DNA of 64,000 bases from Thamnaconus septentrionalis (taxonomy: Eukaryota; Chordata; Actinopteri; Tetraodontiformes; Monacanthidae), in assembly GCA_009823395.1 (NCBI GenBank), contig CM020503.1:7893001-7957000 (forward strand), in the 5' to 3' direction. Made by a program: the position numbers and the translations under genes. This document shows, piece by piece, positions 279-64,000 of this stretch (positions within the stretch are counted from its first letter, which is position 1; the number at the start of each line of letters is the position of its first letter). The notes under the pieces were generated by a model that worked only from the letters and a program-made list of their open reading frames with translations, was not told the DNA's origin and searched no databases.

Positions 279-2624
279 GTGCGACTCCAGGCAGCTTAAA
301 GAGGATTTGAAGACTTTTTATTTCTCGCCGCCGGCATGGCTGCGAACATGATGGCCTGTCCCAACATCTGGCCCGGGGAGGAGCAGCCGTCGCTGCTGGA
401 CCAGGAAGCATCTCTCTCTCTGTCCAACCAGGCGGCCGACTCTGAGCCGTGCCTCCCCGTCAGGGCCGAGCAGCCGGCCCACGGCAGCAGCCCGGCCGAG
501 TCCAGGCCTCCGCGCAGCAAATCCAAAGGCGAGCTGGTGATCGTCATCAACGAGAGGCTGAAAAACGGTGAGTGTGACCGCCGCGCTGCCGTGACCATTC
601 CAGCGAAGCAGCCATCGCAGCTGCTGAATCAGCTCAGCTCAGCCGCCCTCCGTCCGTTTTGTCCTTCACGCGTCAGGTAACGGGATCCACTCCGCAGCGG
701 GCGACGGCTCCTCGCCGGTCATCTCCTCCCCCCCCAGGAGGCAGCACTCCATCTCCTACCCGCACCACGGCAAGACCAGGAAGGGCAGCAGGGCCAGCTC
801 CATTGGCTACACCGCCTTCTCGCCGCGGCCGTCGCTCTCGCGCCACTCCAGCATCGCCACCAACCCCCCGCTGGACCGCACCAAAGTCAAGGACTACCTC
901 CTCCTGTCAGTGCTGGCCTGCTTCTGCCCCGTCTGGCCCATAAACATCGTGGGATTCGTCTACTCCATCATGGTAAGACCCAGGAGGGGGAACCCACAAC
1001 CCGGCTTTAGCCTAGTGTTGTGAGCGTAAGGCAGCTCTGACGTGGCGGTTTTGGTTCTTTGCCTCCTAGTCCAAGAACAGCCTGGAGCAGGGCAACCTGG
1101 ACGGCGCCGTGCGTCTGGGTCGCGTGGCCAAGATGCTGTCCGTGGTGTCGCTGGTCGGGGGGACGGTCATCATCATCGCCTGCATTGTCAACCTGGCCAG
1201 TGAGTCTCCCCCTAATTTTGACCTTTGAACCGTTGTCCTTGTACCCCCAAAACACCCCCCCACTGTTGTTTTTTTGGGGCTATTTTATTTTCAGTTTTAT
1301 ATATGCAATGTATACAAACCAGTCAATATACCAACAGTATACAGGCAAAAAACTACCAGAGAAGGAACCTTGCCACCCAAAGAACAAAAAAACTTTCTTA
1401 ATTACTTGATTATAAGAGATTTGCCAATATGGTCTCATTATGGCTGCTAAATTTTCAGAAAGGATTTTCTGAGACAATATGTTATTTTTTCCCCAGGGGG
1501 ATGCAACTATTCATTTCAATAGACCACCTGTCAATAAGAAGAGGGAAATCAAATTTCCAGATACTGCAATGCACTTCTTCACTTGCCCCACATCAAGCAA
1601 CTTCCTTGAATTTGAGTTGTGCGTTGTTTAGCTAGCCGCAAACACGTATCAAATTCTCCAGAAGACACAATTACACTGCAACTTTAACTTCAGTGATCTT
1701 GGTTACAGTGGTGCTGATGTCATGCCCGAGAGGCTTCACTTTAGTACAGTGCAAAAGGAACCAACTTCAGTGTCACATATCTGTTGTTGTTTCTGACTTT
1801 GCCACATGAGAATATTTAGCTCTGTTAGCACAATCTGCATCTCGCTGATGGCGCTACGCTGCGGCTAACTCCCGTCGCACGCACGTGTCTTTGCGCGTTG
1901 CAGCACTTTAGGAGCCTGCGTCGACGTTCCACTGCGCTCAGAACATATTAGTTCCAATTGTGCCGGTCACATTTGCATTTTCTGACATGTGATTCCATGT
2001 GCACGGCCGGCCTCCGGCTGCAGCCGACTGCGTGACTCAGTTCAGCGTGGGTCCGTCTGCACAGCGACGCGTGTCATCCGCTCTCTGCGCAGAATGTGAA
2101 GTCTTGTTCTGTCCTTGATTTGTCTGTATGCATATCAATATATAGATTTCCATAATGCATGATGATGTGTCAGACCTGCCCACTGGACTTTTCAACATGC
2201 ATTTATTATATTTAACTGAATGAATTCTGGTAAAATATCAGATGGTCATAAGGTGTAATATGAAGGGACTCGTTGGGTTTTTTTGTCTTTCTGTCGATAG
2301 AATTCACTAACAGCATGAAGGCTCAGGCAGTTTCTCTCTTTTGGAAATTGCGTGTTCCTCATCTGCCCCAGGGTTCTGAATGCAAACAGTCGCAGCCTGT
2401 TGGTTCTCATCAGGCTGAGAGACGCCTCAATCAGCCTAATTACTCCGGCAGCCATCGCTCACGCAAGCCAAGTTTCAGGGCTCTGGGACGTCGTAACTTC
2501 TGCTCTCCTCATTATATAAGTGTCCTCTGTGGTCTGCGGCGAGCTTGATACGCCCACACTGAGTCACAGCTCCCTCCTCTAATTTGCTTCCTTTTCCTTT
2601 TTTTCAGTCAACGTGAAAACCTGA
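279..2624 (+). CDS. prrt2: PRRT2-like proline-rich transmembrane protein (CD225/dispanin family), 4 coding exons
   Basis: Coding exons are 336-567, 677-972, 1070-1199 and 2608-2624 (TGA 2622-2624). All introns are GT-AG, phases close, and the product is 224 residues. A splice acceptor at 277-278 means 279-335 is 5' UTR and an upstream non-coding exon lies outside the window. Residues 1-148 are Ser/Pro/basic-rich and probably cytosolic. The first hydrophobic segment is about 151-175 and carries the family signature [14 protein letters not shown] loop with [18 protein letters not shown] follows, then the second segment at about 199-219 and a short tail. In mammals PRRT2 is a presynaptic protein that binds SNAREs and AMPA-receptor components and tunes transmitter release. 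The two-segment C-terminus matches PRRT2 ([24 protein letters not shown] in human is closest in memory) better than TMEM233, TRARG1 or PRRT1. The N-terminus is much shorter than in the human protein (340 aa). The convergent doc2a neighbour supports the assignment. Confidence 0.88.
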
Positions 2625-14189: not shown

Positions 14190-36079
<21,890 letters not shown>

Positions 36080-55141: not shown

Positions 55142-56313
55142 TAGGGATGCAACAATATTCAGTAACTTACCGAACAGTTTGGTACGCCAACAAGTTTGGT
55201 ATGTTTCAGCCGGGAGCTTGGCATTGGTCCGACCTCCCATTAGTCTGACAAATTGCCCATTGGTCCAACCTCTCCTAACCCTAATCGTAACCCTAACCCT
55301 AACCCTAATGGGAGGTCGGACCAATGGGCAATTTGTTGGACTGATGGGAGGTCGGACTAACGGGCAATTCCCATTTCGGCCAGTCACAAAACTTCATCAA
55401 AACTTGGCACAGCCATGATGTTGTGCAAGTGGATCCACTCAGGAGAAAAGACTAGTGGCGCGCAGCTTTTTGACAACCTGGGGGTCCCGCAGTTATCAAT
55501 AATTTGACTGGTTCCAGCAGCCCCCAAGAACCACATTATCACAACCTGCCTCAGCCCGCAACCCGCTGTCATTAAATGAACCAATATGTCTTTGAACGTG
55601 GCTTTTTTACTCCATCACCGAGGTGGTTGTAAACAGCCTTCATTGGCTGATGTCACTTACAAATGCCAAGTGCATGAAACAACAATGAACAGAATACTTT
55701 AATGTAATGCATTTACCACAGTAACCCTAGCATTCTCTTTGGGCAAACCAAGTAGAATATAGCAGCCTAAGATAATAACTATAGTCCAACCATTGTCCTG
55801 AACTCACTAATCTTTCTCCTCCCTGCAGAATGGCAAGTGCCGTTGTTATTACGACGGCACTTGCCAATCTGTTGTGATTGTTTGCGTCAGAGCGCATGCA
55901 GTTTATGTAACATATGCATTTACCTAACGTATCAACATTAGATTGCTTAGCCCATTTTCTAATATTAACGAGTTTAATAATATATCCATTTAAACTGATT
56001 TATTTTCAATCTGTTCAAAATACATTTCACCATTTGAAAAAAAAAAATCCCATTATACATTTGACCCACTCAAGCCCAATACAATGAAAACGTCTGGATT
56101 TGGCTGTGAGTGGGTTAAAAATGTAGTTTATTTTTATTGAATAGTCATAATTTTTAAATAAAGTTTGTGGTTTGATTGTATCTGTGCTTTAAATTATTTT
56201 TACAGTACAGTATGATATTGCCTTTGCCACTCAGAATACTTTTATTTGAATTAAACCGTGCCCAAAAACCGTGATGCATATCGAACTGTGGGAACTGTAC
56301 GGTTGCATCCCTA
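55142..56313. mobile_element. Non-autonomous hAT-type transposon, 1172 bp, with telomere-like core
   Basis: Perfect 12-base terminal inverted repeats TAGGGATGCAAC (55142-55153) and GTTGCATCCCTA (56302-56313). Exact 8-bp target duplications CTGTGCAC lie at 55134-55141 and 56314-56321. TIR and duplication length are typical of hAT. No transposase frame is present. The interior holds a palindrome around (CCCTAA)n at about 55221-55372 and a 13-base-arm hairpin at 55831-55866. Confidence 0.88.
55272..55308. repeat. Interstitial telomere-like (CCCTAA)n
   Basis: Five to six CTAACC/TAACCC units with one CTAATCG variant, located inside the hAT-type element rather than at a chromosome end. Confidence 0.9.
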
Positions 56314-56321
56314 CTGTGCAC

Positions 56322-57020
56322 ACGGTAAAAGCACGCCCCCCTGTGGAGAGAGGATTCATGAGCCAACCAGGGGCACTTCAAGAATCTAAAACCAATTTAG
56401 ATTTAGAATATAAGCTTGAGTGATGGCTCTCTTGACTTTTCCACACCCACCAGACATCAGACTGGACCACTGTGCTCGGTGAGCCCAGTTGTTGTCCTGC
56501 ACTGCATGAGGGTTACAGCCAAGAGTTTGTGCAATAGCTGCTTTGATATTTACTTCAGCAATTTGGTGCATTTGTGCATTTTCAACTTTAACTGTGGAGA
56601 AGTTGCTTCTTTCGTGCTATTTGGTAACAGATGTATATACACTTCAGTCATTAATCAATGGTGGGTGCCTTCTTTGCTTGAATACATTCTGTTTTCTAAA
56701 GTTTTTTTTCTTTCTTGCATGTGTATGGGGCAATGCTCTTTAGAAGCAACTTCATCATAATGTGAAAGAGGAAGAATAAAGTGAAGAAAGAAATGATTCC
56801 GTAACACCCAACGGTATGAATGCACTTATATATGCAAAGTGGGCGCATGGATCACCTTGCAAGCAGATGGAGTGCCGCTTGAAAAGCTCCAATTTGAATC
56901 TCCTCAAAGGAGAAAGAAGTGTGAGCTATGGGCGAGGTTGATGCGCTCAATTATAAATCGGAAATCGTGTTTTCCAAGTTTATGGCTGACTGAGTCACTG
57001 GAAATACCTCTGAAATAAGT

Positions 57021-57064
<44 letters not shown>

Positions 57065-57217
57065 AGGGGACTAGAAAACCAGGGTACTATGCAGCTAGAA
57101 CAGTTGTTTCTCAACATTGCATAAAAGTCATTCATTACACTGTTTATTACAAACCTTGTCTTATTATGAGTCATGGAAAAGTCATTCTATTGTGGCTACT
57201 ACCAGAACATGTTATAA
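56322..57217. other. Intergenic, no gene recognised
   Basis: Contains a (CA)n run at 57027-57060. Otherwise nothing recognised. Confidence 0.55.
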
Positions 57218-57225
57218 TAATAATG

Positions 57226-57271
<46 letters not shown>

Positions 57272-57490
57272 ATTTTATTTGGCATCGCCTTTCACAGCAC
57301 TCAAGGACACTTTACAGAAGAATAAAAACATAAAAAATAAATAAAAACAACGGACAATTAAAAGAGAACAATAAAATCACAGGGAGTACACAGATTTAAA
57401 CAGATGAGTTTTGAGTCTGGATTTGAACTGGGGTAGAGATATTACGGATGTCTGGTGGGAGAGAGTTCCAGAGTTGGGGAGCAGTGCGGC
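57218..57490 (-). mobile_element. Interspersed fish repeat with (AAT)n tract
   Basis: (AAT)n at 57218-57270 is followed by TTTTATTTGGCATCGCCTTT, CACTCAAGGACACTTTACA, CAGATGAGTTTTGAGTCTGG and GAGAGAGTTCCAGAGTTGGG, all segments of a very common teleost interspersed repeat. If retroposed, the (ATT)n on the minus strand would be its tail. Class is not certain. Confidence 0.6.
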
Positions 57491-57950
57491 TGAAAGCTCA
57501 TGATTTGTCCACTCGATGCTGTGGCTTTTGTTTTTAGAGCCACATTGCCATGGTCGCTTTCCCAGATAGACATGTGCATTAATTCCAAGAGATTTGGTAA
57601 ACACTTGGCTTATTGGCTTAGCGAACATTCTGATACATGTGAATGGAGAAAGATCAACAAATGTTGAGATGATCTGCCAGACGAATAGTTCTAAAAAGTT
57701 GCTAGTACACTTTAAAAAAGAAGTACACTGACCCACAAAAACTGCGTCTAATGTGACTTTAAAATGTAAAATTTTGCATTTTTTTTTTCAAAATTCAGAA
57801 TTCAGAACAGAATTAAATCATGATAAAAAGTAAGGTTTACCTTAGGGTGCTGGGATTTCTTTTGGAATATAGCTCTTGCTGGAACACATTGTCTGAGCGG
57901 TCTTCACTCTTCCTTAGCCAGCTAATGAGCAAATCATGCACTAAATGTTG

Positions 57951-59256
57951 TCAGTCCTCTTCAGTTTGATCTTTCTGGTCCTTCTGGCTGATTCCTTCAG
58001 ATTGCTCTTCAAAAACCACATCACAGTCGCTGTCGTCACAACAGGGTCCGAAACGCTCATCGGTTTCCTCGTGCTGACTGTACTCCTCCCTCCTCCACGA
58101 CGGACCAGGCATGGCCTCCTCTTCAGAGTCGTAGGATGTGGTGGCTGCCTGCTCACTAGGACCCACATCCGACTTGCGTACAATTTTCAAAGGTGGTCCA
58201 TGCATAGGGTCTTCTTCCGAGTCCTCATCTCTTCTCGTGTTCCTTCTGCGTTTTCTTGATGGACCAGGTTGAGGGTCTTCTTCCGAATCCCAAGCGGCAC
58301 CCACGTGATTGTCTGGACTTCTCTCAAGATTCCTTGGTACTTCCCGTGAGGATACAGGCTGGGGGTCATCGTCAGAATTCTCATCACTGGCATCTGCGTG
58401 TTCCACTCTTTTGAGTTTTGAGCTCTCACCTGTATATTCTTGGTCAGAGTCAGGCAAGTCAATGCCCGAGTCAGTCGACTCATCGTATGAAACCAACCTT
58501 ATTACGTCATCCTCACTGGAGCTACTTGTTGAACTTGATGTTACAGACGGAAAGGAAGAGTTGGCGTCTTCATCCTCTATATCGCGATGGCCTTCCAAGT
58601 CAACTCCAGGATTGGCAGCGCCGTCGTCACTGTCAGATTCCTCAGTTGCATTGTTGCCGTCGCGGTTGGCAACATTCCCCTGGTTTTCATTGATGTTGAG
58701 GTTTTCCACCTCCACAGCCATATCCATCCCCACCGCATCATCATGCTCAAAGAGAAACTCCAGCCAGATGCGTAGTGTACCCATGACTTCCTCGTCTCCC
58801 ACCCATTCGCCTCTTGGAAACAGTCGTATCAGAACTGCAACAACAGTGCAGAGATTTCATTTCACTCACTGCTAATGGGTACTCATGATGGTATAACTCT
58901 TGTGAAGACTGTAGTGTGCCAGATAGCATACGCCTGTACTAAATATGAGTGCGAGTTTGCAAAGTGCGACTACCATGAAGTATGCCAAAATGCAGTGAAA
59001 TTACTTGTATGTTAGCTACTCTACAAACTAACGTTAGGAGTGGCTAGTTTACAACAGAACCATATTTTGGTCGGGCAGTAACATCGTGGTGCATATTTGG
59101 TCTGTGAAAAACCGTCAGCTTTAGTTTTATTTGCCACATTCACGTTTTGCCCGAATAAAAAGTGGTAGTACACAAAGCAGAAGTTAGAACTACATGTAAT
59201 TAAAGGCAATACTTACAACTTCTACCATTGTGCCCTCCATCTCCCATATTGTCCAT
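57951..59256 (-). CDS. Acidic Ser/Asp/Glu-rich nuclear-type protein with PGPS repeats, paralog A (unknown function)
   Basis: Two coding exons: 59217-59256 (ATG 59254-59256, MDNMGDGGHNGRS) and 57951-58834, GT-AG, phase 1, 307 residues. An acceptor at 59277-59278 implies the first coding exon begins at 59276 and a 5' non-coding exon exists upstream. After a short hydrophobic/aromatic N-terminal block (LIRLFPRGEW, LRIWLEFLFEHDD) the chain is strongly acidic. It has four modules of the form DSEEDPxPGPS near residues 166, 196, 218 and 249. RKRRR at 207-211 looks like a nuclear localisation signal, and many S-D/E-D/E sites suit casein kinase 2. I do not recognise the family. Exon layout and both N-terminal blocks match paralog B at 60588-61498. 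Confidence 0.7.
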
Positions 59257-59378
59257 CGCAGGTAAATATTTTCTTTCTGACAAAAAAAAAGTGTTTTAAT
59301 GGGGCTATGATTTTAGATGAATGAACACCGACACACCTAATGAGGTAAAACATATGAAATTGGCTACATTTTCAAAGT

Positions 59379-59606
59379 TTAAGGCAGAAAAGAAGGATGT
59401 GGTGCGCATACCGTACTCTCCAGAAATTTTGCTAAATCAGTCAGTCTCTCTAGCACACTGGCTCCTGGAAGTTTCTCTGGTCCAAGCGAAACATCAGGGA
59501 CACACAATGTTTCAAGCCTCGACTCAACGTCGTCTTCTTCCTCTTCGTCTCCTCCTTCGTCTTCCTTTGTGAGGTCTAAGGGCAGCTGGCATCCATCGCA
59601 ACGCAT
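59379..59606 (-). CDS. Candidate acidic exon/ORF upstream of paralog A
   Basis: The frame begins MRCDGCQLPLDLTKEDEGGD, passes a run of Asp/Glu and ends LERLTDLAKFLEST at a possible donor ACG|GTATGC near 59412. Composition resembles the neighbouring acidic genes and its strand is the same. Spliced to 59217-59276 it would read through in a frame different from the MDNMGDGG frame and stop at the next exon. It is therefore either a 5' leader with an upstream ORF, an alternative product, or a fragment of a third paralog. Weak support. Confidence 0.35.
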   Translation of the reverse strand: MRCDGCQLPLDLTKEDEGGDEEEEDDVESRLETLCVPDVSLGPEKLPGASVLERLTDLAKFLESTVCAPHPSFLP

Positions 59607-60401
59607 TTCTGCCGCCTCACTTTTGATTCTTCATGAGTGTCCGTCTGTTCCTGGAGGCGCTGCACTTCCAGGCCGAAGCATGGAGCTACAGAGCAAATCC
59701 CTGGTCTAGCGCCCTGTGCCAAAAAGAAGTTCATCTCTTTAAACTTGCCTTTTCTTTTATCTCTGGCCGTGCTTTGATCTTCCCATCATTCGAGCGGCCT
59801 TTCGATCGAAACAGCCCAAACATAAATAAACCACAAAACAAACTGTTGTACGGAATGAAAAGCTGAGATTGTCACGTTGCGTGTGTTACGAAAGTGCATG
59901 TTGTTTGATGTTCTAGCTCACAGAAAAACCATGACAAATTAAATGTAAAAATCTGCAATTATTTTTCTGTTTGTGATATTAGAATACATACTTGTGTTGT
60001 TTTTTAAATTTATTGAAAGTTGTTTTGCATCTTCCGTTGCTAAATAAATAAAAGTGAATGGTCAACACCTATTTAGTTTAATTACTGGCTGCATTCTGTT
60101 TGGGTGTTCTTTTCAACCTTCGTTACTACTTCTTTGTTACCACCCTTGTAAAAACTAAAACTAGTTCCTCTGTCTTAAAACCAGAACTTCACCCTAGGTG
60201 ATTATTTTTTTGTCCAGAAAAAAGAAAAACATTCTTACAAAGAAAACAATTAAAAAATAAGTACCTGGCCACAATGGAGAGTGCAACACGTTAGGCAAAC
60301 GAGGCCCAGAGCTCCAAAGATGAACAATTTTGATAGTCTGCAGCGATTAAAATACAAACCTCACAGGACATCTGCACTGTTTTTGGTGTAGTGTTATTGA
60401 T

Positions 60402-60407
60402 TTTATT
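60402..60407 (-). terminator. Polyadenylation signal of paralog B
   Basis: AATAAA on the minus strand, about 180 bases after the TAG stop at 60588. Confidence 0.6.
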
Positions 60408-60587
60408 CTAAAGAAAAAATACAATTTGAACAATGGGATATATTAGATTAGATCTTTTTGCAAATAAGCAGCCCTTTTAATGCAACTATCAAGAGTGGTC
60501 CACAACATTCATTGTCTTTACCACTGAAGAGTTGAGCTGGGTGCTCCTGCTACTTGTTTTTTCTCAACCTCCTCGCCAGAACCTCGG

Positions 60588-61498
60588 CTATTTTCCGCTC
60601 CTGTCACTTTCCGCCCGGTCCCTTCTCCGTTTCCTCGACGGACCAGGCAGAGGCTCATCTCCAGAATCATTAGAATCCTCGGAACAGTCGCTTGGACATT
60701 CCAGTGATTCTTCTTCCTCTGCGTTTCTAGTCCTCTTCCAAGGCAAACTGGACTGACATTCCTCTTCAGAATCCTCCGTACTTGTGCTCTGGTATGAAAT
60801 CGAACTTTGCTCACCCCTTGGTGTCCACTTTGAGGATGGTCCAGGCAAGGGGTCGTCGTCATCCGACTCCTTGGCACTGGAGCTTACAGTGTTCCCGCTG
60901 TCACTTTCAAAATCCCAGGGCTCTTCCAAGGAATGCCTTTCTTCAGCCTCCTCACTCGACTTTTGTCTCAGCTGCGCAGTCGAGGGATTGTCATCCGGGT
61001 TGACATCTTCCTGCTCACCTGCCACACCAACCTCACCGGTGGCATCAGCGGCGGCAGCATCAGCGGCAGAATTGGCGGCATCTGCAGCGTTGTCGTTACT
61101 GTCCTCAATGACAATAATTTCAGGGCTGTCAATGCTGAGGACGAAGCTGCTGCTGTTTTCATTAGCTTCATTGTTCTCCTGGTTCTCCTCGCCGTCTGTG
61201 ATTGCGGGAATGTCGGGGTGTTCCAGTATAAAAACTATGTCCCACCTGCCTACTTCATCATTGCTCAGGAGTTCCAGCAAGGCATGGATGAGCAGGAGAC
61301 GTTCATCCGGCGGCCATTCACTGATGGGAAACAGACGCAGCCTGACTTCTATGTCTGTAGGAACCCGTCAAAGACATATTTTAAAGGGATTAAAGTCAAA
61401 AGCAGCAAACTTGTCTAATTCTTTGACCAAAGGTGTGTTTAACGAGCAAAACACTTACAATTTCTACCGTTGTGCTGTCCATCTCCTCTGCTGTTCAT
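60588..61498 (-). CDS. Acidic Ser/Asp/Glu-rich nuclear-type protein with PGPS repeats, paralog B (unknown function)
   Basis: Two coding exons: 61459-61498 (MNSRGDGQHNGRN) and 60588-61354 (TAG stop), GT-AG, phase 1, 268 residues. The first exon is exactly the same length (40 coding bases) and phase as in paralog A. The N-terminal block reads VRLRLFPISEWPPDERLLLI followed by HALLELL, a probable small helical domain. An Ala-rich and acidic middle follows, with EIIVIED at residues 92-98 resembling a SUMO-interacting motif. Three acidic PGPS-type modules close the chain (DDDDPLPGPSSKW; a degenerate one; GDEPLPGPSRKRRRD), with RKRRR at 254-258. No enzyme motif is visible. Family not recognised. Confidence 0.72.
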
Positions 61499-62740
61499 TG
61501 TGACGTTTGAGTGACAAGGGTTTTTATAGTTTTAATTCAAAACCGGGTTTAGATGCAGGTAATTTTTGCTGATTGGCCTATTAACGATGTTACAGGTTTG
61601 CCTTGAGTCCATGGAGCGAAGCAGTGAAACCTCTGCTACAAGGAGGTGGAACGACTGCTGGCACCTGCCATGTTGCAACACAGCCATGGTCGGATTTACT
61701 CCTTCTGTCTGTGTTACGCAACATCAGGTCGGCGCAAGCGGTAACGAGGGAGAGCCGCTATTCCATCACAGTATCTCAGGTAGGATCAGCACAGGCACGT
61801 CACCGCAGAGCAGGTGTTCTTCACACTGTTTGATCACCTAAGCATTTAATACATGTTCAACGTTACTGGCACTGTGGTTTCTTTTTGCACTGATCTGCTT
61901 TGATCTAACGTGACTGCTGACGTCACATCCTTTGATCCGCATTGTCCTTTGTTCTTATCCTGTCGTCAGATATGATTTGGGGCTAGGGGAAAATAACTGG
62001 TGGATGTCTAGCACTTTATGCATAAACAAGAATGACTGGGGAGAGAGGAGGAAGAGGGAGACGAACAGGAAGGAGGGGGAAAAGACCAAAATTGGTCTCT
62101 GCCCTATGTGGGCTTGTGCCTGAACTAGTACAGAACTACTTTTCTGAGCAACTTCACACCATCAATGTATTCAGGATTCCTCAAGGCCTTTAATGAAGTC
62201 AACTTTTTTTTGTCAATTATTTCTTGACTGTAAATGTACGCAGAGCCAACAACATGACTAATGTGTCATAAAACCAACGTAATATAAAAGGGCTGGTGTG
62301 GGCTCACGAGTCGTTATATACAGAATCTTCGGTGTATGATTTCCCTCACAGTTGTTCGTCTCGATTTCACTGCACTTTTCTCGTGCGTGCTTCTCAAGTC
62401 AAGACCTCCAGCTTGTATTTTTAACTTCGTCGTGTTCAGTCCTCCAGTGGGGGGCGTCTAAATGTGGGTTCGCCTGCCTCCCAGTTGCACGTCTTACGCA
62501 CGCGGCCTCGAGATAGTCAAAGAAAATAAGAGAGGGAAAAATAGTGCGATTACTTAACTGAACGCCGACTAGTGCGACGTCAAAACGGGACCTGTGACCT
62601 CTGGCTGAGCTAAATCAGGCAGCAGCAGCCCCCAAACCCGCTGACCACCACGGCTGCAGCTACTTAGCACCGGAGCACCGACTTCGACTGCAGCGTGAAG
62701 CCGCCTGGAGACGCCTGGCTTTGGGACACGACGGGTCGCG
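61499..62740. other. Intergenic; probable promoter region of adprh-like gene at right
   Basis: Divergent spacing between paralog B (minus) and the adprh-like gene (plus). A TATAAAAG sequence occurs at 62284-62291, about 450 bases before the adprh ATG. The last 200 bases are GC-rich. No exon was recognised otherwise. Confidence 0.45.
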
Positions 62741-64000
62741 ATGGAGCGGTGAGGCTGCGACCGCTTGGCGGAGGGATTTTTAGGTTAGCGGCGGCTGCTG
62801 CGGCAGTAGCAAGTGCAGCTGTTGCAGCCGAGAAGCCTGTGACATGTTTGGCTGATGCGTGTGTAAAATGATCACTGCATGTGGACAATACATCAAAATA
62901 GTAATCATTTCTAGGACGAACCATAGAGCATTTTCCCTTCCGCGTCTTAATCAAACTACACATGCCAGATATACCCACTATGGGAGGTTTTAAGGGATAA
63001 AATAAGAATGTGACAGGTTTGAAATATACTACTACTCATAATAACAATAATGGTAGTAAAACTAATAATGTAGAAAACAGCTGTATTTGCCAAATTCTTC
63101 AGAGAAAAATGAAACAAACTGACACAATTCCTATTAAGACAGTCAGCTGCTGAATGTAGCCATTTAATACTTTTATTTGTGGGTTAATGACTCCGCTAAT
63201 GTGAAGGGAGCAGTAATCCAAATGTTCATGTTGCAGTAAAACGGCCACAGTGGAGAAATACAAGGCAGCCATGCTGCTGAGCGGCACTGGCGATGCCCTG
63301 GGATACAGGAACCAGCTGTGGGAGTACAATGAGTCCGGGCCCGCCATCCATCAGGTTGGTCCCACTAAACAAGCATGCTTCTGTGTGCAGAGATAACGGT
63401 TGCATCATTTAGCCCTATGATAAAGGGGGGAAGAAAAAAAAACCCTTATCTTTGTATTTCTTCACAGGAGCTCAAAGAGCTGGGTGGCCTGCAGAACATC
63501 AAGGCGGAGCTCCCTGATTGGCCGGTGAGCGATGACACAGTTCTGCATCTGGCGACGGCTGAGGGGCTGGCCACCGGTGAGCGCCAGCGCCACCTCCACG
63601 CCACACATGCACTCGCTCGGCCTCCGTGACTCTGGCCTCGGGTGGATTTTGCTCGTTTAATTTTCAAACGGAATTGATTGGATCGATCTGATTGCAGGCT
63701 TGGCGCTAACAAGGTCTCATCAGGATATGCGCGCCGCAAAAGGCTAACCCAGATTTATAGTCTGGCCCTGATTTGCTGCACTATTATGTCTCGGCGCAAG
63801 TGCTTGGAAAACGGCAGAAGCTCCACTTGACCTTTGCTGTGATAAGGCCAAGCCAGCCTTGCAAACAGATGTGTTAGATTTTTCAGAAACATCACAGTCA
63901 GCCATGTGTGTGGTGTGAATAGATTGTCGTCCCCCTTGCAGGAAAGACGGGGGAGGAGCTCCTGCACGAGGTGGCTGCTCGATATGTGGAGGGAATGAAA
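62741..64000 (+). CDS. adprh: ADP-ribosylarginine hydrolase (ARH1-like), first four exons, truncated by window
   Basis: Exons 62741-62748 (ATG GAG CG), 63237-63354, 63468-63576 and 63942-64000+; GT-AG with closing phases. The 98 visible residues include EKYKAAMLLSGTGDALGYRN, then ELGGL, PVSDDTVLHLATAEGLATG and a Val/Glu-rich helix. ARH1 removes ADP-ribose from arginine in the cytosol, using Mg2+ held by acidic residues. D64-D65-T66 is the conserved DDT metal motif. Its presence favours catalytic ARH1 over the inactive-type ADPRHL1, which has DNT there. Relative to human the N-terminus is about seven residues longer. The tiny first exon is inferred from phase fit and a donor (CG|GTGAGG). The C-terminal three quarters lie outside the window. 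Confidence 0.9.

Follow-up and report, generated by a model that had tools for sequence, protein, structure and literature searches.

Described counterparts of the gene pair

For lineage-specific genes of teleosts, which are among the closest described counterparts of the locus reported here, a published zebrafish survey describes genes that are shorter, have fewer exons and arose mostly by gene duplication (PMC3599513). The locus is a tandem pair of same-strand genes, called A and B, at 57951-61498 of a 64,000-nucleotide stretch of the genome of the fish Thamnaconus septentrionalis (contig CM020503.1, positions 7,893,001 to 7,957,000; hereafter the window, to which all coordinates refer). A and B are like such genes in having few exons, no known domain and a duplicate partner; they differ from them in that the pair predates the split of the sampled relatives and in that its conserved blocks hardly change. 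Since nothing in their anatomy lacks a parallel, we file them under clade-restricted acidic genes, a known kind. Both are almost certainly real protein-coding genes. Our preferred reading, to which we give about an even chance, is that they stem from an old tandem duplication, occur in one clade only or can be recognized only there, and encode nuclear adaptors in which a small conserved N-terminal block precedes an acidic disordered tail.

Known beta-TrCP substrates with DSG phosphodegrons include IkappaB, beta-catenin and Cdc25A. Gene A may resemble these, given that DSGIDxP(D/E)(S/C) is found within an acidic stretch in 18 of 18 aligned A rows; its spacing is, however, longer than in the usual DSGxxS, and B has only a DSGNTVSSS-type stretch. 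Proteins with SUMO-interacting motifs (SIMs) are possibly matched by B, where acidic residues come after EIIVIED in the window's own row and in most relatives. Of the 18 B rows, however, 4 lack the pattern and another has it in degenerate form, and the likeness was seen in B alone. Finally, a stretch upstream of A, called A0, appears similar to adenovirus E1A-like regulators in being short and acidic with a PxDL(S/T) motif. No viral relative of A or B was confirmed in viral_contigs (where A0 was not scanned) and none was found in Pfam, and the translation of A0 together with A is itself a supposition.

Anatomy of genes A and B

Both genes start their coding part with a 40-base exon, which a single phase-1 intron separates from one long exon. 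In gene A (59256-57951, minus strand, 307 residues), the coding part of exon A1 (59217..59256) holds 13 codons plus one base and ends at the donor GTAAGT, the intron (58835..59216) has 382 bases, and exon A2 (57951..58834) carries the conserved N-terminal block, DSGIDxP, VEHADASDENSD, GPSRKRRR and the stop. Gene B (61498-60588, minus strand, 268 residues) has an exon 1 (61459..61498), likewise of 13 codons plus one base with the donor GTAAGT, an intron of 104 bases (61355..61458), and an exon 2 (60588..61354) with the N-terminal block, the SUMO-interaction-like EIIVIED, WDFES, two PGPS sites, RKRRR and the stop. Each long exon has 17 homologs.

The original prediction had placed both genes in this interval, on one strand and with equal intron phases, and this is confirmed, both lying on the minus strand with introns that are GT-AG, of phase 1 and at the same position; the 294 and 255 codons that it gave are those of the second exons of A and B with the stop included. 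The first coding exon that it described as shared is related in the two genes, with 31 of 40 bases in common, but not identical: among the 13 codons, 7 are the same, 1 differs silently and 5 change the residue. The DSEEDPxPGPS-RKRRR module is repeated more loosely than had been claimed, with two strict PGPS sites per protein and RKRRR after one of them in each. The relation between the N-terminal blocks stands, as the first 62 residues of A and 63 of B align at a score of 91, a value reached by none of 2000 shuffles (mean 23.2, standard deviation 4.5, maximum 48), and comparison of the A and B profiles gave a probability of 98 and an expectation value (E) of 2e-13. With significant similarity (the N-terminal score and the profile E) and the same exon structure (intron position and phase), A and B are a tandem paralogous pair.

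From stop to stop, the frames span 301 codons in A and 259 in B. When the 3.7-kilobase region was shuffled 300 times with dinucleotides preserved, no shuffle had a longest frame of at least 301 codons and none a second-longest of at least 255; the longest frame in any of them was 268 codons, so the length of B alone can occasionally be reached by chance. The G+C content at the three codon positions is 0.61/0.42/0.49 in A and 0.58/0.46/0.54 in B. Long open frames also run antisense to the pair on the plus strand, at 60757-61503 (248 codons) over B and at 58309-58875 (188 codons) over A. The pair could thus be pictured as acidic low-complexity DNA that stays open by chance and has no function, as the antisense frames, the only moderate G+C contrast and the one 268-codon shuffle would allow. 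We find this scarcely credible in view of the shuffles, none of which had a longest frame of 301 codons or a second of 255, and of 34 homologous frames of 170-406 residues with 53-99% identity and near-invariant blocks.

Homologs and age of the pair

In a database of 5.8 billion proteins, the spliced A protein gave 17 matches at E <= 1 from 3181 candidates (1e-164 to 1.9e-72) and the B protein 17 from 1796 candidates (1.7e-144 to 1.4e-55). Up to E = 1 no match weaker than 1.9e-72 for A or 1.4e-55 for B appeared, in a word-based search that misses distant relatives. All homologs come from one source and none carries a protein name. The original prediction had argued for real genes and had named a lack of homologs in other fish, joined to a dN/dS near 1, as evidence to the contrary; real genes are supported by the 17 homologs of each, in two well separated clades, and a lack of homologs does not hold.

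Most of the A homologs (15 of 17) start within exon 2, at MGDEE. The eight homologs that reach further upstream (P0006 and P0008 for A; P0018, P0021, P0022, P0023, P0030 and P0031 for B) all continue into the intron and are therefore genomic or unspliced. Before LIRLFPRGEW, the 3' end of the A intron is translated as NLSTVVAV in P0006 and as NLCTVVAV in P0008, and the B homologs have T-D, A-D or A-G before IEVRLRLFP. As far as protein letters can tell, the junction text in both sets fits a conserved CAG acceptor, and the start of P0030, MVEIVS, fits the end of B exon 1 followed by the GTAAGT donor in another frame.

A tree was built from 36 rows, 18 of A and 18 of B with the window's own rows included, and its root was drawn at the midpoint. 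It splits an A clade from a B clade at 100/100, and the branch between them measures 1.27 changes per column on one side and 1.13 on the other; as 10 of its 33 inner branches are open, the order within each clade is only partly resolved. Near, middle and distant groups can be told apart in each clade, and the two copies have been kept as separate ortholog groups of 18 rows each. Several A and B matches have longest contigs of the same size, namely 4973 (P0001/P0020), 8099 (P0008/P0022) and 7275 (P0011/P0032) bases, which suggests that A and B still adjoin in three other assemblies, equal contig size being no proof of one contig. Some A0 matches also have longest contigs sized as those of A or B matches (2547 bases, P0041/P0003; 2733, P0042/P0021; 7275, P0043).

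The species' own genome has 474,147,460 bases in 132 contigs, and three queries from A, namely 1550 bases of its DNA, the protein of its exon 2 and the first 90 residues of that protein, each matched nothing there but their own place. One copy of A was thus detected, by a search that covers A only; the A query did not return B even at E <= 10, and copies as remote as B would escape it. The lineage-specific expansion that the original prediction had thought plausible is not supported, and a recent expansion was rejected, given a single detected copy of A and a split between A and B that is older than the sampled rows. Because the two form separate clades and appear to lie together in other assemblies, we regard them as an old and stable pair.

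Family searches

That the pair cannot be placed in a family, as had been stated from its letters, is borne out in Pfam, NCBIfam, PHROGs (N-terminal pieces), PDB and viral contigs. Pfam returned no family for A exon 2, B exon 2, the joined A0 and A protein, or a piece spanning A0 to the N-terminal block. An alignment called A3, which was used for the Pfam scan by row, the A plus B scan of viral contigs and the structure model of B, holds 28 of the 36 rows, without P0033 and the A homologs P0002, P0007, P0009, P0011, P0012, P0015 and P0016. Its 28 rows gave stray weak Pfam matches only, the best being Bclt (one member, E 0.0068) and SOBP (two members, E 0.15), and these were taken as chance. In NCBIfam, the only match was DpdJ for B at E 1.6, far short of the cut-off. 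There was no match in PHROGs for the N-terminal pieces of 55 and 63 residues, in PDB sequences for the 63 N-terminal residues of B or the A1 profile, or in Rfam for 56000-64000. In viral_contigs no relative was confirmed, with 0 of 8 pattern matches for A exon 2 and 0 of 55 for the A plus B alignment. Peptide strings from the pair do not occur in the literature searched, which says nothing about database annotation.

These results bear on the view that the pair is domesticated, that is, a mobile-element or viral remnant turned into host genes. Acidic stretches that combine PGPS with clusters of basic residues are also seen in the N-termini of some transposases and in some viral regulators, the PLDLT of A0 is similar to the site through which certain viral and cellular regulators bind CtBP, and an open stretch directly 3' of A (57377-57787, see below) may be the end of a retroelement. 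We nevertheless hold domestication to be quite unlikely: A DNA and A exon-2 protein are each confined to one place in the genome, the viral pattern matches were not confirmed, neither Pfam nor, for the N-terminal pieces, PHROGs gave a convincing transposase or viral family, and the intron sits at the same place in both genes. For descent from a known transposon-encoded protein, which had been named beforehand as a possible refutation, no support was found, A being single-copy as far as detected, with no Pfam transposase and no viral-contig relative. A transposon copy was set aside as unlikely.

Conserved blocks and proposed role

Gene A encodes a protein with a net charge of -54 (D+E 27%) and gene B one of -42 (D+E 24%). 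Judged from the aligned rows, conservation is patchy, with near-invariant blocks amid a variable tail. In the 18 A rows, residues 11-50 of exon 2 are 94-98% majority-identical, and high values recur in DSGIDLPDSD (92%), KRVEHADASD (96%), ENSDDDPQPV (92%) and the PGPS-RKRRR part (88 and 83%), the remaining tail blocks going down to 60-75%. DSGIDxPx, VEHxDASDENSD, GPSRKRR(R/K) and MAVEVENLNI are each present in 18 of 18 A rows, the window's own counted. The highest blocks of B are DPLPGPSSKW (93%), GPSRKRRRDR (93%) and SNDSGDEPLP (91%), followed by DFESDSGNTV (87%), and its N-terminal block reaches 80-87% over fewer rows. WDFES-type and SDxDxPxPGPS stretches occur in all 18 B rows and PGPSxKxRR in 17, again with the own row counted. 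Such near-invariant blocks are direct targets for mutation tests, and the pair, which no family search placed, has yet been retained in its relatives.

From the acidity and the conserved basic RKRRR, a role as nuclear regulators is plausible, and the predicted location of both proteins is probably the nucleus. Secreted or cytoplasmic acidic proteins, such as matrix or storage proteins, offer another explanation, since mineral-binding proteins, too, are typically rich in D, E and S. Inspection by eye, however, shows no N-terminus of the hydrophobic, signal-like sort, and all 18 A rows have a basic RKRR(R/K)-type cluster, as do, when a loose pattern is used, 17 of the 18 B rows; this alternative appears very improbable to us.

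Under the preferred reading of an old nuclear adaptor pair, the proteins, once expressed, would enter the nucleus by way of the RKRRR cluster, and the N-terminal block, perhaps a beta-alpha-beta unit, would bind a partner or dimerize. The acidic disordered tail would serve as a display of short linear motifs. Those of B would be the hydrophobic-acidic EIIVIED, similar to a SIM, and WDFES; A would offer DSGIDxPD, similar to a phosphodegron for beta-TrCP, together with a VEHADASDENSD-type block that is invariant. Through such motifs, chromatin or transcription factors might be recruited and protein turnover might be set. Each of the individual motif readings (degron-like, SIM-like and WDFES) is tentative and, in our view, more likely wrong than right.

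The predicted structures are of low confidence, with AlphaFold2 giving a mean predicted local distance difference test (pLDDT) score of 48.7 for B and 47.7 for A. In the B model, a strand (2-7), a helix (15-30) and a strand (38-43) lie in blocks of pLDDT 54-71, and at most a small beta-alpha-beta unit is perhaps present at the N-terminus. Several results weigh against the preferred reading. The A model has one helix (13-29) and no strand, at low confidence, so that the strand-helix-strand order of B is not confirmed by A; further strands of the B model (69-73 and 76-82) lie under pLDDT 50, and the SIM-like stretch falls there. When the B model was compared with PDB by Foldseek, 113 matches were listed at E <= 10 and none of them reached E <= 0.001. 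The loose SIM-like pattern is found in 14 of 18 B rows, being unmet in P0029, P0030, P0031 and P0034 and degenerate in P0033, and short motifs of this kind arise by chance in acidic proteins. Part of the A-B profile score comes from tail composition. The spliced N-terminus is absent from all 34 homologs, the eight that reach far enough reading intron.

The N-terminal block of A and B may be a new domain. In its bolder form, which we rate as rather unlikely, this view holds that an acidic pair of nuclear regulators is headed by a clade-only domain of about 55 residues, made up of GDGxHNGR and RLFPxxEW, a GTLRIWLEFL / LLLIHALLELL-type helix and then VEVENLNI / FILEHPDI, with A0 as a separate micropeptide bearing a CtBP-type PLDLT. 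Were the block a new domain, it would be an entry point to the origin of clade-specific nuclear regulators; otherwise the locus would be another orphan pair.

The A0 stretch and regulatory signals

A0 (59417..59606, minus strand; MRCDGCQLPLDLTKED...; MRCDGCQLPLDLTKEDEGG...) is an open stretch that is conserved and contains a PLDLT motif; it may be a 5' exon that carries a small upstream open reading frame. It has six homologs (E 2.3e-34 to 2.2e-10), and in the own genome it matches one place strongly and three acidic places weakly (E 0.34 to 2.07). In the window, splicing from a GT donor at 59416 to a CAG acceptor that lies before 59276 can join A0 and A1 in frame, into a single protein of 377 residues, and the homolog P0038 is open beyond the junction as well. 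On these grounds A could be the longer protein, with A0 as its first exon, and B a shortened copy. The predicted proteins of the other homologs, however, stop before the proposed junction, three of the six (P0039-P0041) after VLERQ and two (P0042 and P0043) after 39 residues; these ends are taken as stop codons. Moreover, the B exon with the matching ATG is directly preceded by a TATA site. As the predicted end of the frame differs among relatives, the fusion appears unconserved, and A0 is for this reason better viewed either as a small separate gene or as a 5' exon containing a short upstream reading frame. With five of six A0 homologs ending before the junction, we consider the 377-residue form unlikely.

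The TATA site before B is a TATAAA (61523..61528, minus strand) that lies 30 bases upstream of its start codon, and past its stop come an ATTAAA (60481, minus strand, at 107 bases) and an AATAAA (60402..60407, minus strand, at 181 bases); TATAAA and AATAAA are consensus matches. For gene A, the search for TATA-like sites turned up only GATAAAA, a weak one upstream of A0 (59755..59761, minus strand, a consensus match only), and the sole polyadenylation-type signal in the 750 bases searched sits 672 bases away.

Neighboring genes

Directly 3' of A, the minus strand carries an open stretch of 136 codons (57377-57787), whose end resembles the C-terminal end of a fish long interspersed nuclear element protein; its sole Pfam match, YfkD at E 0.037, falls short of the cut-off. 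To the right of the pair, the plus strand carries a gene of the ADP-ribosylglycohydrolase type, head-to-head with B (PF03747, E 2.4e-10, with a query whose first two residues were guessed). To the left are a CD225 gene (628-1020, plus strand; PF04505, E 2.7e-10) and, at 35363-36079 on the minus strand, what we take from its sequence to be a DOC2-like first coding exon, Pfam giving only a chance match. Together with a presumed ataxin-2-like exon past the window (L002, 7.6-8.3 kilobases, minus strand), the DOC2-like exon and the CD225 gene are, we assume, partly reminiscent of human 16p11.2.

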